Assembly: GCA_946537885.1 (NCBI GenBank)
Contig: CAMNGC010000006.1
Coordinates: 33,694 to 97,693, forward strand
Reading direction: 5' to 3'
Source of the DNA: an uncultured Clostridia bacterium
GTDB lineage: Bacteria; Bacillota; Clostridia; Saccharofermentanales; Saccharofermentanaceae
Length of the DNA stretch: 64,000 nucleotides
The notes under the pieces are model-generated. The model was not told the origin of the DNA and searched no databases. It saw only the letters and a list, made by a program, of their open reading frames with translations. The translations under genes were made by a program, and so were the position numbers. This document shows positions 32,695 to 47,868 of the stretch, piece after piece (position 1 is the stretch's first letter; the number at the start of each line of letters is the position of its first letter).

Positions 32695-32731
32695 TGTTCC
32701 TTATCTCTTAATATGACGAGGAGGTATGTGT

Positions 32732-34759
32732 ATGAAACGTTTTACAAGAACGGTCTGTGTTTTTCTAGCAGCTTTATTGATATGTCAGTTGTTGCCGATG
32801 GTGCCTAGAGAAAAGTGGGTAGATGTAGTTCGAGCGGATATTGCTGGTGGTGATACGGCAAGTGAAGTTGTCGCGTCCGGTGTATGTGGAGAGAGTATTA
32901 CATGGTCTTTGGACAACAACGGGGTTTTGACTATAATGGGAACCGGTGATATGACAAACTATAAAGTAGCTAATGTTCCTTGGGCAGCATGCAAAGAACA
33001 GATTAAGTCAGTTGTTTTTGAAGGTGATATTACATCAATTGGTAGAGCAGCTTTCAATGGTTGCTCAGGTATAACAAGTATAATTATTCCAGACAGCGTT
33101 ACTTCTATAGAGACTTGGGCGTTTGGTAGAAATCCTAACTTGACTGATATTATTATTCCAGAGGGTATTACCCAAATTGCCGATTGCTGTTTCTATGAGT
33201 GTACGGGGTTAAAAAATATAACTATTCCAAGTAGTGTTACTTCGATTGGTGATTGTGCTTTTTTGAAATGCTCTGAAATAACAAATATTAAACTTCCAGA
33301 TAATATTACTTCAATTGGAAGAGAAGCTTTTTCTGGTTGTACAGGTCTCAGTACTATTATCATACCTGAGAGTGTTACAACTATTGGCAAAGGTGCTTTT
33401 GAAAACTGTAATTTGTCAACAGTTATAGTGGATGAGAATAGTTACAGCCAAGATGCATTTCCAGACACACATATTGATAATATTATTTACTATTACGAAG
33501 TAAACTACATCAGTGAAGGCAACGGAACAGTCTTTGGTCCTTCAAAATCGTATCCCAATGAAACTATTGAAATCATAGTGTCACCTGTTGATGATTTCCT
33601 AACAGAAAAAGTTAGCATTACTTACGGGGATACCAATATTGAAATCAAACCGGATTCTGACGGAAAGTACTACTATACCATGCCTGACTCTGAAGAATCT
33701 GTTGCTATAAAGGCTTCTTTCATTAATAGTGACACGGAGCCTTCAGGAACTCCAAGTACAGCTCCAACAGGAAATCCTACTCCTGTGCCAACCGAGATTG
33801 TTCCTTCGGTTGCGCCCACACAGTCTGCTACTCCTGTACCTACAGGAGCTACTTCAACACCTTCTCCGACAGTTCCTAATGGTACTACACGAAAGCCAAA
33901 TATGCCGACTAATACACCTCGTCCCACTTCAGCGAGTGCACCTACTAGCAAGCCTACAGCGACTCCGACAGCTACACCGACTGTTAAGCCAACGGCAATA
34001 CCTACTGAGGTGCCTGATGAGGGCGGAGTAGCCGGATTTGTAGAACGTCTGTATTCTGTAGCACTTGGCAGACCATCGGATCCGGGCGGAAAGGCTGATT
34101 GGATCCAAAGAATATCCAGTGGTGAGATCACCGGCGGTGAGGCTGCCAGAGGGTACTTCCTGAGTGACGAGTTTATCAATATGAACCTGTCAAATCACGA
34201 GTTTGTTAACCGCCTTTATCATACTTTTTTCGATCGTGATCCCGATGAGGGAGGTTATAACGGCTGGATGACTCAGCTCTCTAACGGCGCATCGCGTGAA
34301 AACGTTTTGGACGGCTTCATCAATTCTACTGAGTGGGCGAACCTGTGCCTGCGTTACGGAATAGCGTCCGGAGGTAATGGCGTGCCTAACATAACGATAG
34401 AACCCAATCAGCAGATCATTGATTTTGCTACAAGGCTATATACGACCTGCCTTGGAAGACCAGCTGATCAAGGTGGTCTCGAAGATTGGTCAAGGCAGCT
34501 TGCCAACATGCAGATCTCAGGTTCTGATGCTGCTCATGGATTCTTCTTCAGTAACGAATTTATGACGGCAGGCTACAGTGATGCAGAATACGTGACAAGG
34601 CTTTATAGGACATTTATGAACCGTGAGCCTGATCTTGGAGGCTTTGCAGACTGGATTGGCCGCCTGTCAGCAGGCGCCAGCAGAGAAGAAGTATTTCAGG
34701 GCTTTGCCGGCTCAGCCGAATGGGCCGGGATATGCGCTGAATATGGAATATTAAAATAA
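32732..34759 (+). CDS. Secreted LRR (BspA-like) surface protein with two DUF4214 domains
   Basis: ATG 32732 is chosen over 32726 because GAGGAGG is then seven bases upstream. Product about 675 residues: signal peptide (MKRFTRTVCVFLAALLICQ), then about five LRR_5 repeats of 23 residues with the pattern ITSIGxxAFxGCxxLTxIxIPxSV (about 95-235), an all-beta section, a threonine/proline-rich stalk (about 333-428, many TPT and PTA units), and two DUF4214 domains (about 435-540 and 565-675) each with RLYxxxLGRPxDxGGxxDW. BspA-type LRRs bind host or plant surfaces. The LRR part is visibly more AT-rich than the flanking genes, which hints at transfer. Confidence 0.85.
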   Translation: MKRFTRTVCVFLAALLICQLLPMVPREKWVDVVRADIAGGDTASEVVASGVCGESITWSLDNNGVLTIMGTGDMTNYKVANVPWAACKEQIKSVVFEGDITSIGRAAFNGCSGITSIIIPDSVTSIETWAFGRNPNLTDIIIPEGITQIADCCFYECTGLKNITIPSSVTSIGDCAFLKCSEITNIKLPDNITSIGREAFSGCTGLSTIIIPESVTTIGKGAFENCNLSTVIVDENSYSQDAFPDTHIDNIIYYYEVNYISEGNGTVFGPSKSYPNETIEIIVSPVDDFLTEKVSITYGDTNIEIKPDSDGKYYYTMPDSEESVAIKASFINSDTEPSGTPSTAPTGNPTPVPTEIVPSVAPTQSATPVPTGATSTPSPTVPNGTTRKPNMPTNTPRPTSASAPTSKPTATPTATPTVKPTAIPTEVPDEGGVAGFVERLYSVALGRPSDPGGKADWIQRISSGEITGGEAARGYFLSDEFINMNLSNHEFVNRLYHTFFDRDPDEGGYNGWMTQLSNGASRENVLDGFINSTEWANLCLRYGIASGGNGVPNITIEPNQQIIDFATRLYTTCLGRPADQGGLEDWSRQLANMQISGSDAAHGFFFSNEFMTAGYSDAEYVTRLYRTFMNREPDLGGFADWIGRLSAGASREEVFQGFAGSAEWAGICAEYGILK

Positions 34760-35322: not shown

Positions 35323-36987
35323 TTAAGCCTGCGGCTTATAGCTGTCCTTCAGCGATACTGCGCGGTTGAATACCAGGTGTCCCGGCTTGGAGTCCTTGTT
35401 GTCGGCGCAGAAGTAGCCGACTCTTAAGAACTGGAATCTTTCCTCGGGCTTGGTATCTGCAAGGCTTGCTTCGACCTTGGCGCCTGTTACGACTGTAAGC
35501 GAGTCGGGATTGATGTAATCCAGATAGTTTACGTCAGCCAGGTCAGGGGCTTCGATGGTGAAGAGGCGGTCGTAAAGACGGATCTCCGCATCAACGGCTG
35601 TTGCCGAATCTACCCAGTGGATGGTTGCCTTGATCTTACGGCCGTCAGCGGTGTTGCCGCCGCGGCTGTCGACGTCATACTCTGCGTGAACTGCAGTGAT
35701 GTTGCCGTCTGCATCCTTGTCGCAGCCTGTGCACTTGATGACATAAGCGGACTTCAGGCGGACTTCGTTACCGGGGAAGAGGCGGAAATACTTCTTGGCC
35801 GGTTCTTCCATAAAGTCATCACGGTCGATCCACAACTCACGAGTGAAAGTTACTTCGCGTGTGCCGTCCTCGGGGCGCTCGGGATTGTTCTCTACCGTGA
35901 AGGACTCTGACTGACCTTCGGGATAGTTATCGATTATCAGCTTAACCGGATTTATGACCGCCATTGCTCTCTTGGCTGTCTTATTGAGATCTTCTCTTAG
36001 GCAGTACTCCAGGAAGGCGTACTCAACGACGGAATTGACCTTGGATACGCCGTTGCGCTCGTGGAAATCACGGATGGATTGAGGTGTATAGCCACGCCTC
36101 CTTAAGCCGCAGAGGGTGGGCATACGGGGATCGTCCCAACCGGATACCAGGCCGTTCTCGACCAGATTACGGAGCTTACGCTTGGACAGGACCGTATGTG
36201 TTATACCGAGACGTGCGAACTCAATCTGACGGGGCTTGGTCTCAACAGAGATATTGTTTACGACCCAGTCGTAGAGAGGGCGGTGATTCTCGAACTCAAG
36301 TGAACAGAGGGAGTGGGTGATGCCTTCCAATGCATCCTCAATGGGGTGAGCAAAGTCATACATCGGGTAGATGCACCACTCGGTACCTGTTCTGTGGTGG
36401 GGGAGACGATTGATACGATAGATGACCGGGTCTCTCATGTTAAAGTTGCCGGATGCCAGATCGATCTTGGCGCGCAGTGTCATCTTGCCGTCTTCGATCT
36501 CGCCGGCTCTCATCTTGGCGAAGAGTTCCAGTGACTCCTCGATTGGACGGTCACGGTAAGGGCTTGTGGCAGGTGTATTTATATCGCCTCGCATGTCTTT
36601 CATCTGTTCGGGTGTCAGCTCACATACATAAGCCAGGCCCTTCTTGATAAGTTCTACGGCAAATCCGTACATCTTTTCGAAATAATCAGATGCATAGAAG
36701 AAGCGGTCACCCCAGTCGTGACCGAGCCAGTGGATATCTTCCTTGATAGCCTCGACGTACTCTTCGTCTTCCTTGGTCGGATTCGTGTCATCCATACGCA
36801 GGTTGCACATGCCGCCGTAAAGCTCGGCCGTACCGAAGTCTATCTCGAGGGCCTTGGCGTGACCGATGTGCAGGTAGCCGTTCGGCTCAGGAGGGAAGCG
36901 CGTATGGACGGTCTTGCCGTAACAACGTCCGCCTTCCTTGAGCTCCTCGTCAATGATCTCATGAATAAAATGTTTGCTTTCAGCCAT
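35323..36987 (-). CDS. glnS: Glutaminyl-tRNA synthetase
   Basis: A class-Ic synthetase of 554 residues that charges tRNA-Gln. FPPEPNGYLHIGHAKAL is the HIGH motif (about 31-47) in the GlnRS-specific form, and VLSKRKL is the KMSKS-like motif (near 265). The C-terminal half has the two beta-barrel anticodon-binding domain of GlnRS. Most Gram-positives lack GlnRS and make Gln-tRNA by amidation of Glu-tRNA, so its presence next to gltX is notable. It lies 46 bases downstream of gltX on the same strand. Confidence 0.96.
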   Translation of the reverse strand: MAESKHFIHEIIDEELKEGGRCYGKTVHTRFPPEPNGYLHIGHAKALEIDFGTAELYGGMCNLRMDDTNPTKEDEEYVEAIKEDIHWLGHDWGDRFFYASDYFEKMYGFAVELIKKGLAYVCELTPEQMKDMRGDINTPATSPYRDRPIEESLELFAKMRAGEIEDGKMTLRAKIDLASGNFNMRDPVIYRINRLPHHRTGTEWCIYPMYDFAHPIEDALEGITHSLCSLEFENHRPLYDWVVNNISVETKPRQIEFARLGITHTVLSKRKLRNLVENGLVSGWDDPRMPTLCGLRRRGYTPQSIRDFHERNGVSKVNSVVEYAFLEYCLREDLNKTAKRAMAVINPVKLIIDNYPEGQSESFTVENNPERPEDGTREVTFTRELWIDRDDFMEEPAKKYFRLFPGNEVRLKSAYVIKCTGCDKDADGNITAVHAEYDVDSRGGNTADGRKIKATIHWVDSATAVDAEIRLYDRLFTIEAPDLADVNYLDYINPDSLTVVTGAKVEASLADTKPEERFQFLRVGYFCADNKDSKPGHLVFNRAVSLKDSYKPQA

Positions 36988-37033: not shown

Positions 37034-38497
37034 TTAGGCCTGGAGCTTTTCGAGACCTATCTTAAGCCTTCTCAAAGCTTCGTCCTTACCAAGAAGGATC
37101 AGGACTTCTGAACAGCCGCCGGGCGTTACTGCGACACCTGCCGCAGCGATCCTGACAGGCCACATGATAATGGCGTTCTTGACCTCTTTTGAAGCAGCCA
37201 GGTTCATAAGAAGCTCGGTTATAGCGTCACGCTCCCAATTGCATTCTTCCAGAAGCGGAATAGCCGCTGTCAGAGCATCAATGGATGTCTCTCTTGTGGA
37301 CTTGCTCTTCTTGTGCTCATAAAGGCTTATATCGTAGTCTGCCAGGCTCTTTAAGAACTCAAGCTTTTCTTCGATCTGTGTGAACCGTGTGATCCTGGGC
37401 TTGAGCATTTCTTCCAAGAGAGCGTAATGCTCTTCCTTGATGCCGAGCCTATCGTAATAGGGCTTGGCATTCTCATTGAACTCTTCGGACGACATTGCCT
37501 TGATATATTCGGCATTCATCCATTCGAGCTTATCATAGTCGAAAACACTCGGCGACTTGCTGATCCCGTTTATATCAAATGCTTCGATCAGCTCGTCCAT
37601 ACTGAAGATCTCCCTCGTATCGGCAGGAGCCCAACCGAGAAGCGCAATATAGTTAATGATAGCCTCAGGCAGGAAACCCTCTTCGATCAGATCGAAAAAT
37701 CCCGTTGACCCGTGGCGCTTTGAAAGCTTGGAAACAACAGTCTCGCCGTTCTCATCCACGCTCTTACCCATAATGAGAGGCAGGTGGATATAAGTAGGGA
37801 TCTCCCAGCCGAAGGCCTCGTAGAGCGCGTTGTACTTGGGCGTGGAAGAGAGATACTCGGATCCTCTTACAACATGTGTGATGCCCATCGTATGGTCATC
37901 GATTACATTAGCGAAATTATAAGTGGGGTAGCCGTCCGCTTTGATGAGGATCTGATCGTCCAGTTCCTCATTGGGAATTGTTATATCGCCATATACGCAG
38001 TCGTGGTATGTAGATTCGCCGGTAAGGGGGGACTTCTGTCTGATGACGTAGGGAACGCCTGCGGCAAGTTTTGCCTCGATCTCCTCTTCGGGCAGGTCGC
38101 GGCAGTGTCTGTCATAACCGATGACTTCGCCTTCCTTGGCGCTGCTTCTTAAGGCTTCAAGCCTCTCCTTGGAGCAGAAACAACGATATGCTTTGCCTTC
38201 CTTAACGAGCTGCTCGGCGTAGGGCTTATAAAGTCCAAGTCTCTCGCTTTGGACATAAGGTCCGTAATCTCCGCCTACATCAGGACCTTCGTCGTGGCTG
38301 ATGCCTGCTGTCTCCAGTGTCTTATATATGATATCCGTAGCTCCCTCGACGTATCTCTCGCGGTCGGTATCTTCGATCCTTAAGATAAAACTGCCGCCTC
38401 CGTGTCTGGCCGTCAGGTACTCATAAAGAGCTGTTCTTAAGTTGCCCACATGCATAAATCCGGTGGGGCTGGGTGCAAATCTTGTTCTGATCTTCAT
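37034..38497 (-). CDS. gltX: Glutamyl-tRNA synthetase
   Basis: A 487-residue class-Ic synthetase. HIGH-type motif APSPTGFMHVGNLRTAL (about 7-23), KMSKS-type motif VSKLSKRHGS (near 250), and an alpha-helical C-terminal anticodon domain, as usual in bacterial GluRS. With GlnRS beside it, this enzyme may be specific for tRNA-Glu (discriminating). Upstream on the minus strand TATAAT (38530-38535) may be its -10. Confidence 0.96.
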   Translation of the reverse strand: MKIRTRFAPSPTGFMHVGNLRTALYEYLTARHGGGSFILRIEDTDRERYVEGATDIIYKTLETAGISHDEGPDVGGDYGPYVQSERLGLYKPYAEQLVKEGKAYRCFCSKERLEALRSSAKEGEVIGYDRHCRDLPEEEIEAKLAAGVPYVIRQKSPLTGESTYHDCVYGDITIPNEELDDQILIKADGYPTYNFANVIDDHTMGITHVVRGSEYLSSTPKYNALYEAFGWEIPTYIHLPLIMGKSVDENGETVVSKLSKRHGSTGFFDLIEEGFLPEAIINYIALLGWAPADTREIFSMDELIEAFDINGISKSPSVFDYDKLEWMNAEYIKAMSSEEFNENAKPYYDRLGIKEEHYALLEEMLKPRITRFTQIEEKLEFLKSLADYDISLYEHKKSKSTRETSIDALTAAIPLLEECNWERDAITELLMNLAASKEVKNAIIMWPVRIAAAGVAVTPGGCSEVLILLGKDEALRRLKIGLEKLQA

Positions 38498-38615
38498 AGT
38501 GTCAGGTCATCCGTCCTTTTGGGTTAATTATTATAATAACGGGAGTATTGTACCACTTTTGACGGATAAAGTGATATGATACAACAGTAAATATGAATCG
38601 GAGCGAGAATCCTTT

Positions 38616-39668
38616 ATGGACAAACTGACGACTAACCGTAAATACGATGCTTACTGCGGCAAGGATATAGCCTTTGATTTTGCTGCATCCTATATTCTTG
38701 AGCACACTTCGGGAGAGGGAGCGTCTGCTCCCAAAGTTGCGGTCGTATCAGACAGGATAGTCAGTGGTTATTACTATAATCGATTTGAGAATCAGTTTAT
38801 CGAGAGAGGGATAAAACCCGTATTGGTACCGGTTGAGTGCAAGGAGTCCGGTAAGAGCCTTAGCGCTGTAGAGACGGTCTTCAGGTATATAAATGACGGA
38901 GATTACGGGCGCGACGATTGGATAATTGCCTTAGGCGGCGGAGGAGTCGGTGATGTGGCGGCTTTCGTTGCGGGTACTATAGACAGTGGAATTCGGCTTA
39001 TGTCAGTTCCCACGACTTTATGCGGCATGACAGAGGTTTGCGTATCCGGTAAGGCCTTCCTTAATTGTGGCAGCCGTAAGGATCAGATCTCGGTCAGGAC
39101 AGAGCCGGATGTGGTGCTTGCTGATCCGTCTTTCTTATCTAATCTTCCTCAAGCGGTTAAGTTTAACGGTTATGCCTCGGTTATCAGATATTCTATCCTC
39201 GAAGATATTAATCTGATGCTTAAGCTGTCGGACCCGGGTAATCTCAGGGAATACTTAAATGACATATATGCGGCGAGGACTGAGATAGAGAAAAAGAATC
39301 CGCTACTTTTGACTCTCGGTAACGAGATCGCAGCGGCTATTGAAGGTTATTTCAGATTCATGAACTACAGCGAGGGTGAAGCCCTTGCCTTGTCGCTTTT
39401 GGCATCCGTTGATGAGAGACGCCGCACACCCATGAAGCGCATATATGAAGCCTTGGGATTACCGGTAATGCTTCAGGGAGTATCCGGAAAGATGATAATG
39501 AAGAATCTGCGAGAGCAGATAGGAAGAATGGGACAGAGGATGGAGATAGTGGATTTCATCGAGTCTGACGGAGGCTTGTGGGAGGTTCGCGAAGTGGACA
39601 GACAGGAGGCTCTTGAGATCCTCGGCAAGAGATTGTCCGTAATAAGTGATTGGGAGAATAATACATAA
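38616..39668 (+). CDS. 3-dehydroquinate-synthase-like protein lacking metal ligands
   Basis: A 350-residue protein of the DHQ synthase/glycerol dehydrogenase fold. Kept: NAD-binding IIALGGGGVGDVAAFVAG, VPTTL, SGKAFLN in place of GGKTAVN, and the ESGKSL segment. Lost: the zinc-binding glutamate (GLAEVIKYG is GYASVIRYS), and both zinc histidines (LGHTFGHAIE is LGNEIAAAIE, and HGEA is EGEA). The active-site lysine of EVIKY is arginine. A catalytic AroB should not tolerate this, so I call it a paralog with another function or a pseudoenzyme. The M28-like gene starts 2 bases later. Confidence 0.75.
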   Translation: MDKLTTNRKYDAYCGKDIAFDFAASYILEHTSGEGASAPKVAVVSDRIVSGYYYNRFENQFIERGIKPVLVPVECKESGKSLSAVETVFRYINDGDYGRDDWIIALGGGGVGDVAAFVAGTIDSGIRLMSVPTTLCGMTEVCVSGKAFLNCGSRKDQISVRTEPDVVLADPSFLSNLPQAVKFNGYASVIRYSILEDINLMLKLSDPGNLREYLNDIYAARTEIEKKNPLLLTLGNEIAAAIEGYFRFMNYSEGEALALSLLASVDERRRTPMKRIYEALGLPVMLQGVSGKMIMKNLREQIGRMGQRMEIVDFIESDGGLWEVREVDRQEALEILGKRLSVISDWENNT

Positions 39669-39670
39669 GA

Positions 39671-40915
39671 ATGATTATTTTTAATAACAAAGGGATCATA
39701 AAAAGAGCTTTTACAGCTGTTTTGGCGGCAATTGTTTTCTGTATGCCTTTGGCAGCGTGCGGTTCTTCCGAAGAAGAGAAGAGGACATCGGAATATGGCA
39801 GTTACGGTGCTGATTTTGCCCGCCAACTGGCAAGTTCATATCCTCACAGAGCTGCTTACTCTGTAGGAGAGAGCGGAGCAGGCGAGATGATCAGGTCGGA
39901 ATTCGAGAATCTGGGCTATGAGGTTGAGACTCAGGAGTTTAAGAGTATCGGAGGCGCTACATCCCATAATTACATCATCAGGATCGACGGCAAAGGCTTT
40001 GTCGGGGATCTTGATGAGAACGGCTCATATGAAGATACAAGACGTACCGCTGTTATCGGAGCTCATTATGATACTCCGCTTAATTCGGGAGCTGACTATG
40101 ACGGTATCTCCGGAAATGCATCGGGGGTGGCCTGCCTCATGACGGCCGCGGCGCAGATTAAAGAATACACAAATGTGGGTTTTGATGTCGTGATCGTGGC
40201 TTTTGGTGCCGGCGGAGATAATTATGCGGGTGCCAGAGCTTTCTATGATTCACTTACAGATGAACAAAAGCAGGCTATCGAGGTCATGTATTGTGTCGAC
40301 AGTATCTACGGAGGGGATAAGATATATGCTTCTTCGGGATATAATTCACTGATAACAGATCAGAAGTATGCCATGAGACGTAAGCTCTACCAGGTCTACG
40401 ATGTGGCTTACGATAATATGCTGTCCTCCAATTACGGCTTTAACCTGCTTTATAACGAGTCGAACTATCAGACGGATCTTAACGGTGACGGCAAGACGGA
40501 TCTTTATCGTGAAGTATCGGCAAATCCCTCAGATTATGTTGTTTTCGATAAGCCGGGAACAGAAATAGTATTTTTCGATAGTTTTGATTATAACTATGAG
40601 AAGCTCGAAGAGACGAAAGAGACAAAGAACCTTACACTTCAGGCATATGGCGGCATGATCCGCGGAACCCAGCTTGATTCCATGAAGGTTTTGGATGAGA
40701 TATATCGCACCGAGGAAGAGGATCGCCTTGAGATCCGAGTCAATAATGTTACCTTCTGTATCCTTGAGTCACTGCTTAAAGGCTCGGATGTAGCCATGAC
40801 CTATTCTGAATATGAAGAGTTTCTGGAGGAGCAGGCTGAGGAACAGGAAGAAGCTGCGGAGACAAGCGAGAGCGAGACAAGTCAGACTCAGATCGCTCCG
40901 GTTATTGCGGGCTGA
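39671..40915 (+). CDS. M28-family peptidase-like lipoprotein, active site altered
   Basis: A 414-residue protein with a lipoprotein signal ending PLAACGSS and an M28 aminopeptidase-type domain. AVIGAHYDTP has the first metal histidine and aspartate, and GNASGVACL matches the DNASGVA segment, though Gly stands at the bridging-Asp position. The Glu-Glu pair carrying the general base and a zinc ligand (usually AEExGLxGS) reads AGGDNYAGA, so both glutamates are missing. CVDS keeps the next metal aspartate. The C-terminus is an acidic, Glu-rich coiled stretch. It may bind rather than cut peptides or sugars. It is coupled with the DHQ-synthase-like gene. Confidence 0.65.
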   Translation: MIIFNNKGIIKRAFTAVLAAIVFCMPLAACGSSEEEKRTSEYGSYGADFARQLASSYPHRAAYSVGESGAGEMIRSEFENLGYEVETQEFKSIGGATSHNYIIRIDGKGFVGDLDENGSYEDTRRTAVIGAHYDTPLNSGADYDGISGNASGVACLMTAAAQIKEYTNVGFDVVIVAFGAGGDNYAGARAFYDSLTDEQKQAIEVMYCVDSIYGGDKIYASSGYNSLITDQKYAMRRKLYQVYDVAYDNMLSSNYGFNLLYNESNYQTDLNGDGKTDLYREVSANPSDYVVFDKPGTEIVFFDSFDYNYEKLEETKETKNLTLQAYGGMIRGTQLDSMKVLDEIYRTEEEDRLEIRVNNVTFCILESLLKGSDVAMTYSEYEEFLEEQAEEQEEAAETSESETSQTQIAPVIAG

Positions 40916-40928
40916 TCATAGTTCACGA

Positions 40929-40972
40929 TTGACCTTTTTGTTTTTCTTTGGTTAAATGAAGCTAAATTTAGC
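40929..40972 (+). promoter_or_regulatory. Promoter of the LacI gene with palindromic operator
   Basis: TTGACC (40929-40934), 17-bp spacer, TTAAAT (40952-40957). The perfect 12-bp palindrome GCTAAATTTAGC (40961-40972) covers the expected transcription start, so the repressor probably controls its own gene. A related sequence lies in the mannan operon promoter. Confidence 0.65.
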
Positions 40973-40995
40973 TAATTTTAATCGAGGGATCTATC

Positions 40996-42012
40996 ATGTC
41001 GAAAACAGTCAAACTGGCAGATATCGCGGAGCGTGCAGGAGTCAGCATAGTATCAGTATCCAAAGCGCTCGCCGGCAAAAAAGGCGTCAGCGAAGAGATG
41101 CGCCGCCGTATAAGAGACATAGCTGACGAGTTGGGCTATAAGCAGCCCTCCGCCATTGCCGGGGTAACGGCTTTTGAGGGTTACAGCCTGGGGGTTCTGA
41201 TACATGACATGTATCTGGGCAAGTACGATTCCTTCTACCTGCATATGTATCAGGTCCTGTCGACCCGGGCTACTTCTCGTGGAGCAGTTACTATGCTTGA
41301 GACTATCAACGACGGTATGATAGAAGCATCGGTATTGCCGAAGATCGTCGAGGACGGTCGTGCTTCCGGCATAATCATTATAGGCAAGACAGATCCTGAC
41401 TATATCGAGAAGATCAGAGAAAGGGCGCATGTGCCTCTTTTATTTCTGGATTTCTGTACTGACAACAGTGAGGCGGATGCTGTTATATCGGATGGCTTTT
41501 ACGGAGCTTATTACATGACTAATTATCTTTGGGACATGGGCCACAGAGATATAGCTTTTGTAGGCAGCATAAATGCAAACGGTTCTATTATGGACCGATA
41601 TCTGGGATATCTTAAATCTATGAGTGAACATGGCGCAGATACGAGTAGGCTTAAGCGTTACGAGGATCGAACTTCAGACGGTGTAGTATCGGATTCTGTC
41701 ATGAAGCTTAAGAAAAATAACTTGCCGACCGCTTTCTTTTGCAATTGTGATCTGACGGCGGCATGCCTGATCCGTAAACTTGAGGGTATGGGGTATAAGA
41801 TCCCGGAAGATATCTCCGTTGCGGGTTTTGATAATTATCTGGCACCGGGCAGCTGCGATGTGGCAGTTACCTCCTACGAGATAGATGTGCGCGGAATGGC
41901 GGATCGTGCAGTGGATACAATAATAAGTAAGATCAAGGGCGAGCCTTATGCGGGCGGAGTCCATTCAATCAGCGGACATATGGTCATCAAGGATAGCGTA
42001 GCTGAGCTCTAA
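40996..42012 (+). CDS. LacI family transcriptional regulator
   Basis: A 338-residue repressor: helix-turn-helix at the N-terminus (KLADIAERAGVSIVSVSKAL, then hinge) and a periplasmic-binding-like sugar sensor with FAGFDN-type loop (VAGFDNYLAPG). It lies just before the mannooligosaccharide operon, separated by 351 bp that hold the repeat array and promoter; it very probably regulates that operon. The inducer would be a mannoside or mannosyl-glucose, which is inference from context. Confidence 0.92.
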   Translation: MSKTVKLADIAERAGVSIVSVSKALAGKKGVSEEMRRRIRDIADELGYKQPSAIAGVTAFEGYSLGVLIHDMYLGKYDSFYLHMYQVLSTRATSRGAVTMLETINDGMIEASVLPKIVEDGRASGIIIIGKTDPDYIEKIRERAHVPLLFLDFCTDNSEADAVISDGFYGAYYMTNYLWDMGHRDIAFVGSINANGSIMDRYLGYLKSMSEHGADTSRLKRYEDRTSDGVVSDSVMKLKKNNLPTAFFCNCDLTAACLIRKLEGMGYKIPEDISVAGFDNYLAPGSCDVAVTSYEIDVRGMADRAVDTIISKIKGEPYAGGVHSISGHMVIKDSVAEL

Positions 42013-42363: not shown

Positions 42364-43617
42364 ATGAAGAACCCGATCTATCCCAATGAGACCTATAAGA
42401 TGAGAGGTGAGATCAAGGAGCACCTGCTTAGAGATATAATCCCTTTCTGGCTTGCTCTTAAGGACGTTGACAATGGCGGTTTTTACGGCTATGTCGGCTA
42501 TGGACGCGATGTGGATAAGCAGGCTGAGAAGGGGTGTATCTTAAACAGCCGCATACTCTGGTTCTTCTCGAATTGCTATCTGTTGTATAAGGATGGTCTG
42601 CTGACGGATGCTGATCTGGCGGCAGAAGATCTTAAGGCAGCTCAGATCCTGGCAGCCGCAGATCACGCTTTTGATTTTATGAGATCGGCGTTCCTCGATA
42701 AGATAAATGGCGGAGTCCTTTGGTCGGTCAGCTTTGACGGCAAAGCCCTGGACACGACCAAACATACTTATAATCAAGCATTTGCAGTCTACTCATTGGC
42801 GTCTTATTATCGTGCTTCGGGCAATAAAGAGGCCTTAGGAACAGCATGTATGATCTACGATATTATCGAGAGCCGCTGCAAGGATGACAAGGGCTATCTC
42901 GAAGCCTTCAATATTGATTTTACGCCCGCCGGCAACGACAAGCTCAGCGAGAACGGGGTTATGGCGGATAAGACCATGAATACGCTGCTGCATGTCATGG
43001 AGGCCTATACGGAGCTGTATAAGGCGACGGAAGATGTGGGGATAAGAGGGCAGATGATACGTGTTATGGAGATCTTTAAGAACAAGATCTATAACCCGCG
43101 ACTTAGAAGGCAGGAGGTCTTTTTCGATGAGGATTATAATTCCATAATCGATCTTCATTCCTATGGGCATGATATAGAGACCTCTTGGCTTCTGGACAGG
43201 ACATTGGAGGTAATAGGTGATCCGTCTCTTACGCGAATGATGGAGCAGATCTCCGACGCTCTGTCGGAAAACATTTACGAGACTGCTTTCGACGGCAGAT
43301 CGCTTGCCAATGAGTGCGACAAAGGTGTCGTCAACAATAAAAGAGTCTGGTGGGTACAGGCTGAGACTGTTATCGGATTCTTGAACGCTTATGCTAAACA
43401 TCCTGATGAGAAGAAATATATCGATGCTGTTTTGAGGGAATGGGAGTTTATCAGAGATTTTCAGATAGATCACAGAGGTCATCCGGCTGAATGGTACGGG
43501 GAGATCGGAGCAGACGGAAGGCCGGATCCGACCCAGCCTCTGGCAGATCCATGGAAGTGCCCATATCACAACGGCAGAATGTGTATCGAGGTCATAAGAA
43601 GGCTGGAGGACATCTGA
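42364..43617 (+). CDS. Cellobiose 2-epimerase (AGE superfamily)
   Basis: The 417-residue protein belongs to the N-acylglucosamine 2-epimerase fold, an (alpha/alpha)6 barrel. Motifs: [14 protein letters not shown] near 36-50, [11 protein letters not shown], and [16 protein letters not shown], typical of cellobiose 2-epimerases. The enzyme turns mannobiose into mannosyl-glucose, the substrate for the next gene. No signal peptide. GGAGG lies seven bases before the start. One-base gap to the GH130 gene. The context makes cellobiose/mannobiose epimerase more likely than GlcNAc epimerase. Confidence 0.88.
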
Positions 43618-43618
43618 T

Positions 43619-44800
43619 ATGGCTATCTGCGATCAATACTTTAGCGAGCTTAAAAAGCAGGAAGAGCTTTTGGGACGCAAGAACGAGCCGACCGGAGAAT
43701 ATAACGGTATATATAGCCGTTACAAGTATCCGGTGCTTACAAGGGAACATGTTCCGCTTATCTGGAGGTACGATCTCGACAGCAAGACTAATCCCTTCTT
43801 TATCGAGCGGCTGGGAGTTAATGCCGTTTTTAATTCCGGTGCCATTTATCTGAACGGCAAGTATTGTCTGGCAGCCAGAGTCGAAGGTAATGATCGAAAA
43901 TCCTTTTTTGCCATAGCCGAGAGTGACAACGGCATAGATAATTTTCGCTTTACAGACCATCCGGTCTTGATTCCTGACACATATTCTGAAGAGACAAACG
44001 TTTATGATATGAGGCTTACGGCTCATGAGGACGGCTGGATCTACGGTATCTTCTGCTCCGAGAGAAAGGATCGGGATTCTGATGATCTGTCGGCGGCGAT
44101 CGCTTGCGCGGGAATAGTCAGGACCAAGGATCTCAGGACATGGGAAAGACTTGATGACCTTGTTACTCTTAATTCCCCTCAACAGCGAAATGTCGTACTG
44201 CATCCGGAATTCGTAGAAGGAAAATATGCTTTCTATACCAGACCTATGGATGGGTTTATCGATACCGGTAAAGGAAGCGGGATCGGTTTTGGTCTCTGTG
44301 ACGATATCACACACGCAGTGATCGATGAAGAGAAGATGACGAGTCTTCGTAAATATCACACTATAACGGAAGCAAAGAACGGTGCCGGAGCTGTGCCGAT
44401 CAAAACAGAGCGCGGCTGGATACATATCGCTCACGGTGTAAGAAATACAGCTGCCGGTCTGCGTTATGTCCTATATTGTTTTGCGACCTCCTTAGCTGAT
44501 CCCTCCAAGGTTATCGCGGAGCCCTCGGGCATGTTATTGGGGCCTCGCGGGGAGGAGAGAAGCGGCGACGTATCAAACGTAGTCTTCTGTAACGGCGCCA
44601 TAGTCAACGAGAAGGGAGAGGTCTTCATATATTACGCCTCTTCCGACACAAGGCTTCATGTGGCGACATCAACGATAGAGCGCCTTACGGACTACGTTTT
44701 TGCTACGCCGTCAGATCCCGGACGGTCAAGCCTTTGTGTCAAGCAGAGGACGGAGATGATAGATCGTAATCTTGAATTATTAAAGGAGGCGGGTTTATGA
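43619..44800 (+). CDS. GH130 4-O-beta-mannosyl-glucose phosphorylase
   Basis: A five-bladed propeller enzyme (393 residues) that splits mannosyl-beta-1,4-glucose with phosphate to mannose 1-phosphate and glucose. The catalytic acid is in [13 protein letters not shown], with [12 protein letters not shown] and NVVLHPEF as other family segments. Its sequence fits the GH130_1 subgroup ([19 protein letters not shown]), and the upstream epimerase supplies its substrate. The next gene overlaps it by 4 bases (ATGA). Cytoplasmic. Confidence 0.9.
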
Positions 44801-45822
44801 GTAAATACAAGATCTTTTCTTCTGAAGTAGCCAATATGCCTTGGCAGGATAAGCCGGCGGACCACAAGGGGCACGCTCCCATCTGGCGTTATTCGGGGAA
44901 CCCGATAATCGGAAGAAACCCGGTAAAGGGCGTGGCCAGGATCTTTAATAGCGCTGTAATTCCGTATGACGGAGCTTTTATCGGCGTCTTCCGCGGAGAG
45001 CAGGTAGACGGCATCCCTCATATCTATCTCGGCAGATCTTGCGATGGAATTAACTGGGATATTGATGAGGAGAAGATAAGGTTTATCGACAGGGACGGCA
45101 AAGAATTCATGCCGAGGTATGCTTATGATCCGCGACTGGTGAAGGTTGATTTTACTTATTATCTGATCTGGTGTCAGGATTTCTACGGGGCGGCGATCGG
45201 AATTGCCGAGACAAGAGATTTTAAGACATTTACCCGTCTCGAGAACCCCTTTATTCCGTTTAACCGTAATGCTGTGCTCTTTCCGCGTAAGGTCGGCGGC
45301 AATTATCTGATGCTCTCAAGACCGTCGGACAGCGGGCATACCCCCTTCGGTGATATATTCCTAAGCGAGAGCCCGGATATGGAATTCTGGGGCAGACACC
45401 GTCATGTTATGAGTCGCGGGGAGAACTGGTGGGAAAGCGTTAAGATCGGCGGAGGTGCTGCTCCCATCGAGACCGATGAGGGCTGGCTTCTTTTCTATCA
45501 CGGAGTCAGCAGTACCTGTAACGGCTTTGTCTATTCCGTTGGGGGTGCAATCCTCGATCTTGATAATCCCTCCATTGTCAAATATCGCTGTGCCAATTAT
45601 CTACTGACACCCGAAGAATGGTATGAGGAGAAGGGATTTGTTCCCAATGTATGTTTTCCCTGTGCCACAATACACGATCCCGTCACCGGCAGGATAGCGC
45701 TTTATTATGGCGCTGCGGACAGCTATGTGGGGCTTGCTTTCACGACGGTTGATGAGATAATCGACTACATAAAAGAGAATAGTAAGACTGAGCTGTCAGA
45801 TACAGAGATCGGGAGACGCTAA
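44797..45822 (+). CDS. GH130 beta-1,4-mannooligosaccharide phosphorylase
   Basis: A second GH130 propeller, 341 residues, of the GH130_2 subgroup that removes mannose 1-phosphate from longer mannooligosaccharides. Key segments: [19 protein letters not shown] near the N-terminus, catalytic acid in YAYDPRL, and [17 protein letters not shown] with phosphate-binding residues. It overlaps the previous gene by 4 bases, so translation is coupled. The pair matches the two-phosphorylase mannan pathway known from Ruminococcus albus. Confidence 0.88.
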
Positions 45823-45824
45823 AT

Positions 45825-46880
45825 ATGATAATCGAGGCATCGGACAACAGGCTTTTATATTCAGGCAGAATAGGAAAAACAAAGGAAGGCTTACCTCTGT
45901 TTGTCTATCCGGCGACTTCCGTAACTGTCAGATTCAAGGCTCGTAAGATCACTGCCGTGATCAGGGCAAGATGCGAATATTGGGATGCTTATATCGGATA
46001 TATCATAGACGGAGTTCACGGCAAGCTTAAGATCAATGAGGGTGTAAACAGCCTGCTGCTGGCGGAATTCCCCGGAGACAGCACACATGAGCTTATGCTC
46101 TATAAACGGCAGGATTCCTGTAACCGGATCGTTTTCGAAAAGTTTGTTATTGAAGGAGATGAGCCGGAGATCATTGAGGGACTTAAAGCTCCGGTAAGAC
46201 GGATCGAAGTTTACGGTGACAGCGTGTCGGCCGGAGAGGTATCTGAGGCGATCGAATATACGGGAAAAACAGATCCTATGCATAACGGAGAGTTTTCCGA
46301 TGCCTATTATTCATTTGCGTGGATGACTGCAAGGCAACTGAATGCCCGGATCCATGATATTGCTCAGGGAGGTATTGCGTTAGATCACGGCACCGGCTGG
46401 TTTCATGAAGGTGACAAGGGCGGCGCCATCGGAATGTGGGATATCTATGACAAGATCAGCTATGACCCTTTCTATGGTGAAATAAGCTACTGGGACTTTG
46501 GACAATATATCCCGCATGTGGTGCTGCTGGCAATAGGTCAGAATGATGCACATCCCTACGATTTTATGGCGGATGATTATGACGGGAACAGGGCAGATGC
46601 CTGGCGCCGATCTTACGGGGCTTTCCTTGCAAGGTTAAGAGAGATCTATCCTGAGGCTCTGATAATAAGCATGACGACGCTTCTTGATCATGATGAAGCC
46701 TGGGACAGGGCGATAAGAGAGGTAAGCATGAATCTGAGTGATCCTAAGATTGTAAACTACCGTTTTGAACGCAATGGCAAGGCTACGCCCGGGCATCTGA
46801 GGATAAGCGAGGCAAAGGAAATGGCCGATGAACTGAGTTCTTTTATTGATTCCTTCGGTCCTTCAGTGTGGGAGAGTTAA
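45825..46880 (+). CDS. CE2-type SGNH acetylesterase, intracellular
   Basis: A two-domain carbohydrate esterase of 351 residues: N-terminal jelly-roll-like part (about 1-120) and SGNH domain with GDSVSAG (catalytic Ser), AQGGIAL, and IGQNDAHPYD, ending with a histidine in TPGHLRISEA. This is the CE2 layout. There is no signal peptide, so it would deacetylate acetylated mannooligosaccharides in the cytoplasm so the phosphorylases can work. Two-base gap from the GH130 gene. Confidence 0.82.
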   Translation: MIIEASDNRLLYSGRIGKTKEGLPLFVYPATSVTVRFKARKITAVIRARCEYWDAYIGYIIDGVHGKLKINEGVNSLLLAEFPGDSTHELMLYKRQDSCNRIVFEKFVIEGDEPEIIEGLKAPVRRIEVYGDSVSAGEVSEAIEYTGKTDPMHNGEFSDAYYSFAWMTARQLNARIHDIAQGGIALDHGTGWFHEGDKGGAIGMWDIYDKISYDPFYGEISYWDFGQYIPHVVLLAIGQNDAHPYDFMADDYDGNRADAWRRSYGAFLARLREIYPEALIISMTTLLDHDEAWDRAIREVSMNLSDPKIVNYRFERNGKATPGHLRISEAKEMADELSSFIDSFGPSVWES

Positions 46881-46881
46881 G

Positions 46882-47868
46882 ATGGAAAAGAATACGATCC
46901 TCTTTATGCGTCCGGTCCTTAAGGAGAAGATATGGGGCGGTAACCGCTTGAGCCGGGATTTCGGCTATGATGTCGGCGAAGACTCCAGAATAGGCGAGTG
47001 CTGGGGGATCAGCGCTGTTCCCGGTTCGGAGACATGCGTCGCGGAAGGCCCCTTTGAGGGGAAGACTTTGGCGCAGCTCTGGAGTGAGGACAGGGAGCTT
47101 TTCGGCGGGCTGAATTACGAGCAGTTTCCTTTAATGGTCAAGATCATCGATGCAGCCGGAGATTTGAGTATTCAGGTGCATCCGGATGACAGTTATGCCC
47201 GCAGGGTGGAGGGCAAGCCTTTTGGTAAGACAGAATGCTGGTATATCCTGGACTGCGACAGGACTGCCTCCATAATCTACGGTCACAATGCAAGAACCGA
47301 GGAAGAATTGAAGACTATGATCTCGGAGGGCAGATGGGATGATCTTCTCTGCGAGATACCGGTTAAGTCCGGAGACTTCCTGCAGATCAACCCCGGTACC
47401 ATACATGCCATAAAGGCGGGCACGATGATCCTGGAGACTCAGCAGAGCAGTGATCTTACTTATCGCCTTTATGATTACGACAGAGTCGATAAAGACGGAA
47501 ATAAGCGAGAGCTTCATATAGACAAATGTATCGACAACATCAGAGTGCCGGCTGAGCGCCCCCGTAAGCCTTCGACCTTATCTGCAGCTGCAGATATAAG
47601 AAATCTCATGGGCGACGGACGACTTGGCGAGAGTTTTGTCTTGGAACTCTTTGCCTGCCGTTGTTATACGGTCTTCGAGATCAGGGTGGGAGGGAGTCTC
47701 AGACTCAAGCAGCCATTTCCATTCCTTAACATGAGTGTTGTAGACGGCTTCGGTGAGATAAATGAGCATCCGATATCCAAGGGCGATCACTTTATCGTTC
47801 CCTGTGACTTCGGGAATATAAGCCTTACAGGCAATCTTAAACTGGTGGCATCGACAGTAATGTATTAA
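46882..47868 (+). CDS. manA: Mannose-6-phosphate isomerase, class I
   Basis: The track starts upstream at 46846; ATG 46882 is chosen because it is one base after the esterase stop and follows GGGAGAG. The 328-residue zinc enzyme has the metal ligands in IQVHPDDSY (Gln and His), KTECWYIL (Glu) and INPGTIHAIKAG (His). It converts mannose 6-phosphate to fructose 6-phosphate, the exit of the mannan pathway. A phosphomannomutase to make mannose 6-phosphate from mannose 1-phosphate is not in the window, and neither is a transporter. Confidence 0.93.
   Translation: MEKNTILFMRPVLKEKIWGGNRLSRDFGYDVGEDSRIGECWGISAVPGSETCVAEGPFEGKTLAQLWSEDRELFGGLNYEQFPLMVKIIDAAGDLSIQVHPDDSYARRVEGKPFGKTECWYILDCDRTASIIYGHNARTEEELKTMISEGRWDDLLCEIPVKSGDFLQINPGTIHAIKAGTMILETQQSSDLTYRLYDYDRVDKDGNKRELHIDKCIDNIRVPAERPRKPSTLSAAADIRNLMGDGRLGESFVLELFACRCYTVFEIRVGGSLRLKQPFPFLNMSVVDGFGEINEHPISKGDHFIVPCDFGNISLTGNLKLVASTVMY

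Follow-up and report, generated by a model that had tools for sequence, protein, structure and literature searches.

In a 64,000-nucleotide stretch of DNA from an uncultured Clostridia bacterium (the whole stretch is called the window below), we analyzed a gene whose product, P0001, has the fold of a dehydroquinate synthase (DHQS; AroB) and lacks all three metal ligands of this enzyme. P0001 represents a new, metal-site-less DHQS-like clade of a known fold family, which is found in one order as far as sampled and is genetically bound to a second apparent pseudoenzyme. We exclude with high confidence that P0001 catalyzes the AroB reaction. With moderate confidence, we regard it as an NAD(H)-binding pseudoenzyme whose role would lie in sensing or regulation and would be linked to the M28-like lipoprotein encoded directly downstream. 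The two genes are the following:

38616..39668, + strand: gene of P0001, a DHQS-fold, AroB-like protein without metal site (350 aa; open reading frame without internal stops)
39671..40915, + strand: gene of the partner, an M28-peptidase-like lipoprotein (414 aa; lipobox LAAC), 2 bp downstream of the P0001 gene

The genome is a 2.07 Mb assembly of 36 contigs that is 88% complete. P0001 matches the Pfam family DHQ_synthase (PF01761) with 79.5 bits at a gathering cut-off of 24.2 (E 1.9e-22). It reaches only 104.2 bits with the NCBIfam aroB equivalog TIGR01357 (cut-off 305), 76.5 bits with TIGR04425, the AroB-related putative sugar phosphate phospholyases (cut-off 400), and 20.2 bits with the Fe-ADH family PF00465, which includes maleylacetate reductase (cut-off 31.3). 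The related PF13685 is only just passed (32 versus 28). In sequence searches, the nearest solved proteins are mostly DHQS, with 5eks at the top (5e-22). An AlphaFold model of P0001, built from 24 family members, has a mean pLDDT of 89.7, and Foldseek also gave the AroB structure 5eks as the best match of this model (E 2.7e-22, TM 0.80). The DHQS fold and the NAD glycine loop, both of which the preliminary description of this DNA had read as kept, are thus borne out by Pfam, by the predicted structure, and by the alignment with AroBs. Around the gene, no RNA element reached the Rfam gathering thresholds, and a promoter scan of positions 38300-41200 gave a result no better than shuffled sequences.

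The functional sites were compared in an alignment of P0001 and 24 canonical AroBs, which come from its own order and class. Site counts refer to 74 distinct members from the genus or to the whole family set of 94 members; nine class-level matches that had passed the score filter were canonical AroBs and were excluded before the final counts. The metal-ligand positions, which we take from established DHQS structures (A. nidulans E194, H271, and H287), were matched here by alignment only. The relevant positions in P0001 are:

39177..39179, + strand: Ser188, at the position of the AroB metal-ligand Glu (Glu in 24/24 AroBs)
39321..39323, + strand: Asn236, at the position of the first AroB metal-ligand His (His in 24/24 AroBs)
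39372..39374, + strand: Glu253, at the position of the second AroB metal-ligand His (His in 24/24 AroBs)
39333..39335, + strand: Ala240, in place of the second, catalytic His of HxxxH
39186..39188, + strand: Arg191, in place of the EVIKY Lys (all 74 genus members have Arg here)
39354..39356, + strand: Arg247, invariant in 94/94 family members and not conserved in AroB

None of the 74 genus members has the AroB residue at any of the three metal-ligand positions. The former Glu position is occupied by Q, P, A, S, D, or T, the first His position mostly by N, S, or D, and the second His position by E in 65 members and otherwise by D, S, or Y. The exchanges of the zinc Glu to Ser and of the zinc His residues to Asn and Glu, as described before, could hence be confirmed against the 24 AroBs, and the same applies to the Arg at the EVIKY Lys position and to the Ala in place of the second HxxxH His. 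This latter residue, however, is the catalytic His of DHQS and not a metal ligand (PMC7144000). Its position varies in the genus, with His still present in 10 of the 74 members. The former Glu, first-His, and HxxxH-second-His positions lie at the 72nd, 66th, and 94th entropy percentiles, respectively, and thus have at least average variability, and the positions equivalent to K152 and H275 are likewise variable. Moreover, P0001 is six residues shorter than AroB in the stretch preceding the first ligand His. There are also new invariant polar residues, namely R247, E237, Y245, and R211, to which R191 is added genus-wide. Two former Lys positions are now occupied by Arg, R191 in all 74 and R221 in 71 of the 74 genus members; R191 is not kept outside the genus.

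The NAD pocket behaves in the opposite way. Its most characteristic element is the glycine loop:

38934..38954, + strand: NAD glycine loop and Asp, G107-G108-G109 ... D113 (invariant in 94/94 members)

P0001 has kept the pocket positions GGG107-109, D113, PT132-133, K80, K155, and D170. In the genus, D46, K80, G107-109, D113, T133, K155, and D170 are invariant in 74 of 74 members and T134 is nearly so, which means that nine of the ten residues that we take to form the DHQS NAD pocket do not vary at all. With an invariant NAD pocket on the one hand and variable old catalytic positions on the other, the cofactor site appears to be frozen while most of the catalytic center is drifting.

A normal aroB was sought elsewhere in the genome and is present on contig 16 (L001), where the second PF01761 match encodes a protein with the motifs GEVIKY, GHTVGH, and LAHG. 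This gene adjoins DAHP-synthase-like and prephenate-dehydrogenase-like genes (both named from reading of the sequence), and the aromatic pathway therefore need not rely on P0001. Next to the P0001 gene itself there are no aro genes, in agreement with the preliminary description; its neighbors are divergent glnS- and gltX-type genes and the M28-like lipoprotein gene. Aromatic biosynthesis genes were also not seen beside the DHQS-like gene in any of the loci compared. In a maximum-likelihood tree, 28 DHQS-like proteins and 25 AroBs were split across one branch with a support of 100/100. The variant is thus a real separate clade, and the same split rules out that P0001 is a recent duplicate of the genome's own aroB. 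The earlier interpretation was right in that P0001 cannot be a normal AroB, as the ligands are gone and a canonical aroB exists separately, and in that it stands apart from the AroBs; it had missed the linked lipoprotein, which looks catalytically dead, and the stepwise intermediates described below.

When 58 relatives and the genome itself were searched, full-length proteins related to P0001 (45-58% identity) were found in 31 of the 34 other genomes from the genus; the three genomes without one are 64-88% complete. With a median dN/dS of 0.06 (162 pairs with 80-98.5% identity), the DHQS-like gene is under strong purifying selection. Decay or a sequencing artefact, which we had considered, can be rejected on the basis of this selection and the presence in 31 of the 34 relatives. 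DHQS-like members occur in every sampled genus of the family-level group f1, to which this genome belongs, and in the genera g3, g16, g28, and g29 of f3, and the protein is confined to two of the four families of the order, as sampled. Nothing scored above canonical AroBs in samples of 391 genomes of the class and 399 genomes of the phylum outside the order, and the idea of a wide spread through Firmicutes was rejected on this basis. When public genomes were scanned, 58 loci were found, with the titles Saccharofermentans, Mageeibacillus, Ruminococcaceae, Oscillospiraceae, or Clostridiales/Clostridia, and many of these come from rumen and gut.

Relatives within the order show graded states of the metal site. 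All three ligands are kept in L143 (f3, genus g29; L143:4936-5976; motifs SEIAKF, GHAVGH, and LHGEA), which already has the HFRFLRF motif of the DHQS-like family. It is the sole family member seen with a full set of metal ligands. L137 (f1, g18) has kept both His residues and lost the Glu, L091-L094, L145, L146, and L144 (f3) have only the last His, and in the genera g1, g17, g19, and g20 no ligand is left. L143 and L144 are the most divergent members and join near the branch between DHQS-like proteins and AroBs, with the branch of L144 being long and its position uncertain. Judged from the tree and the ligand states, this suggests that the Glu was probably lost early and that the first His may have been lost more than once.

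The gene that accompanies P0001 encodes a protein of the M28 fold, as indicated by a Pfam M28 score of 42.3 bits (cut-off 21.3) and by a model with a pLDDT of 77.7 that matches 9oqa in Foldseek (2.4e-16). The residues that an active M28 peptidase requires are replaced by Gly:

40211..40216, + strand: Gly181-Gly182 of the partner, at the positions of the catalytic Glu and a zinc Glu of active M28 peptidases
40664..40666, + strand: Gly332 of the partner, at the position of the second-zinc His of active M28 peptidases

The catalytic Glu and the zinc Glu of the FGAEE motif and the second-zinc His are therefore all absent from the partner. The 107 partner proteins compared have retained the HxD motif, whereas a Glu is found in only one protein at the catalytic-Glu position and in two at the zinc-Glu position, and the second-zinc His is replaced nearly always. 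By comparison, the three ordinary M28 proteins aligned with them have the HxD motif, the catalytic Glu, the zinc Glu, and the second-zinc His. Due to the loss of the catalytic Glu and the second-zinc ligands, the partner is a predicted pseudo-peptidase.

The pairing of the two genes is conserved. In each of the 64 loci tested, the lipoprotein gene comes directly after the DHQS-like gene; in further genera, the two genes adjoin each other, or a partial copy of the lipoprotein gene is present where the contig ends. The single rearranged pair is that of L143, with a convergent lipoprotein gene and an alanyl-tRNA-editing-like gene in between. The pair is kept while the upstream genes change, from gltX/glnS-type genes in f1 to an Rrf2 regulator and a PLP enzyme of Cys/Met metabolism in f3. 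In the window, the upstream block consists of:

37034..38497, - strand: glutamyl-tRNA synthetase-type gene, the divergent neighbor throughout the family-level group f1
35323..36987, - strand: glutaminyl-tRNA synthetase-type gene, in the same block

In seven genus members, no lipoprotein gene was found (G014, G016, G024, G106, G114, G129, and G143; 64-88% complete), and these are the same genomes in which no DHQS-like gene was found, as would be expected if one contig bearing both genes were missing from these incomplete assemblies. The lipoprotein itself is more widespread. Of the 188 genomes from the order, 178 have it, including 105 of 106 high-quality genomes, and it is present in all 30 sampled genera. 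These include f2, f4, and the f3 genus g6, where the examined loci have the lipoprotein gene and no adjacent DHQS-like gene. As the lipoprotein is found order-wide, including at such loci, it looks like the older element, and the DHQS-like protein appears to be a later companion.

Several side aspects of the loci may be mentioned. In relatives from f2, f3, and f4, NfeD and/or SPFH/Band-7 genes often follow the M28-like gene (L193:3612-6403, L092:5352-8103, L234:991-3440), and this block also has hemW-, hrcA-, grpE-, and dnaK-type genes, the latter four being named from sequence reading. A small protein of about 142 aa, c3 (L148:7166-7594), has a weak match to a GH127 middle domain (E 0.007) and is encoded beside the gene pair in several genera. 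It was considered as a third permanent partner and rejected as not belonging to the core, being found in 32 of 115 family genomes and not in this genome. Elsewhere in the window, a LacI-type regulator gene (40996-42012) precedes a likely cluster for the use of manno-oligosaccharides (42364-47868), with a GlcNAc 2-epimerase-type epimerase, two GH130 phosphorylases, a CE2-type esterase, and a phosphomannose isomerase. The product of positions 32726-34759 is predicted to be secreted and combines BspA-type leucine-rich repeats with a Pro/Thr-rich linker and DUF4214 repeats.

P0001 may act as a sensor, as a regulator, or as a metal-free enzyme, and the evidence leans toward a non-catalytic NAD-binding role, as the NAD pocket is invariant while the old catalytic positions differ between species. 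The protein would descend from a metal-dependent enzyme of the sugar phosphate cyclase type that lost its catalytic metal site step by step. It would still bind NAD(H), perhaps together with a small anionic ligand on the conserved Arg/Lys cluster R191, R221, K155, and R247, and this binding, rather than any turnover, would have a regulating or supporting part in a process for which the M28-like lipoprotein is required too. The lipoprotein, for its part, would be a peptidase fold that is predicted to be inactive and lies at the outer side of the membrane. A precedent for the loss of metal ligands with a kept structural role is the PHP domain of E. coli DNA polymerase III (PMC3666897). The partner has a signal sequence and P0001 has none, so that the membrane lies between them, and their coupling would thus have to be indirect or to involve a membrane protein, which is the weakest step of this proposal. 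For the pair, we infer NAD binding in vitro, absence of catalysis by P0001, a regulatory role, and coupling between cytosolic and extracytoplasmic sides. It is conceivable, though rather unlikely in this specific form, that the two linked pseudoenzymes are a lineage-specific device in which the cytosolic DHQS-fold protein reads NAD+/NADH or an NAD-bound metabolite and the surface-anchored M28-fold lipoprotein, itself without peptidase activity, acts at the membrane, so that the redox or metabolite state is coupled to the cell envelope; in relatives, SPFH and NfeD membrane genes lie next to the lipoprotein gene.

In the main competing explanation, P0001 is catalytically active as a metal-free oxidoreductase (or lyase) that depends on NAD(P). 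The Arg/Lys cluster would hold a small anionic substrate for hydride transfer with NAD(H), in the manner of maleylacetate reductases, and we consider this a serious possibility, albeit one with less than an even chance of being correct. It would account for the invariant NAD pocket, for the invariant R247, E237, Y245, and R211 and the genus-wide R191, and for the strong purifying selection. The good conservation of Glu253 (65/74), R191 (74/74), and R221 (71/74) fits a remodeled active site as well and therefore also speaks against a pseudoenzyme, as does the fact that cytosolic and extracytoplasmic partners cannot touch without a membrane link. In addition, metal-free enzymes exist in the same superfamily: maleylacetate reductases of the neighboring Fe-ADH family are active without metal after ligand loss (PMC5125639), and zinc is not used in the second, reductive half-reaction of DHQS (PMC5760197). 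However, the former metal-Glu, first-His, and proton-transfer positions differ between species, R191 is restricted to the genus, and the only linked gene is that of the lipoprotein and not a metabolic one.

Two further explanations have much lower probabilities. A purely structural or assembly subunit, for example paired with the canonical AroB or another protein, with NAD only stabilizing the fold, would agree with the kept NAD pocket in a mostly drifting active center, but in every lineage examined the genetic tie is to the M28-like gene and not to aroB, and we judge this improbable. It is more improbable still that P0001 has remained a dehydroquinate synthase or sugar phosphate cyclase and that other residues now bind the metal. 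The fold and NAD site are as in DHQS and one distant relative, L143, has all ligands, but in the genus at large the three ligands, the catalytic His, and the substrate residues (K152 and N268 positions) are replaced, the stretch before the first ligand His is shortened, and the same genome encodes a canonical AroB. An NAD(H)-binding pseudoenzyme linked to the lipoprotein is thus the reading that we prefer.

Within a single bacterial order, this family provides a natural series in which the number of metal ligands falls from three to zero while the NAD pocket, under strong selection, does not change, and it is therefore a concrete system for studying how an enzyme turns non-catalytic or shifts to metal-free chemistry. 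As the partner occurs in every sampled genus of the order, the pair also gives access to a core function, so far unexplained, of Saccharofermentans-type clostridia from rumen and gut. For annotation, genes like that of P0001 should not be named aroB.

In the open-access literature, we found no paper on a metal-site-less DHQS pseudoenzyme, and metal-dependent chemistry is, to our knowledge, a hallmark of dehydroquinate synthases and the other known sugar phosphate cyclases. With AroB (TIGR01357; PDB 5eks, 3okf, and 1dqs), P0001 has in common the two-domain DHQS fold over the full length and the K80, GGG, D113, T133, K155, and D170 positions, whereas it lacks the three metal ligands and the catalytic His, has the N268 position replaced, and contains Arg for the EVIKY Lys. 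The sugar phosphate cyclases EEVS/ValA (4p53), DOIS (2gru), and TIGR04425 share the fold and the NAD site, but the 4p53 and 2gru structures carry Zn or Co, the ligands of which P0001 does not have. Maleylacetate reductase, from the metal-free Fe-ADH branch (cd08177), belongs to the same superfamily and is active without metal following ligand loss (PMC5125639). It differs from P0001 in its sequence family, as the PF00465 score mentioned above indicates, and no aromatic-degradation genes are found near the P0001 gene. The nearest solved relative of the partner is the M28 domain of the autotransporter AaaA (9oqa). Nicastrin and the transferrin receptor are M28-fold proteins without peptidase activity, and nicalin (7tm3) likewise has the M28 fold and no peptidase activity, which resembles the partner with its lost catalytic and zinc residues. 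In contrast to nicalin-type proteins, however, the partner is a bacterial lipoprotein, and it is paired with a DHQS-fold gene.
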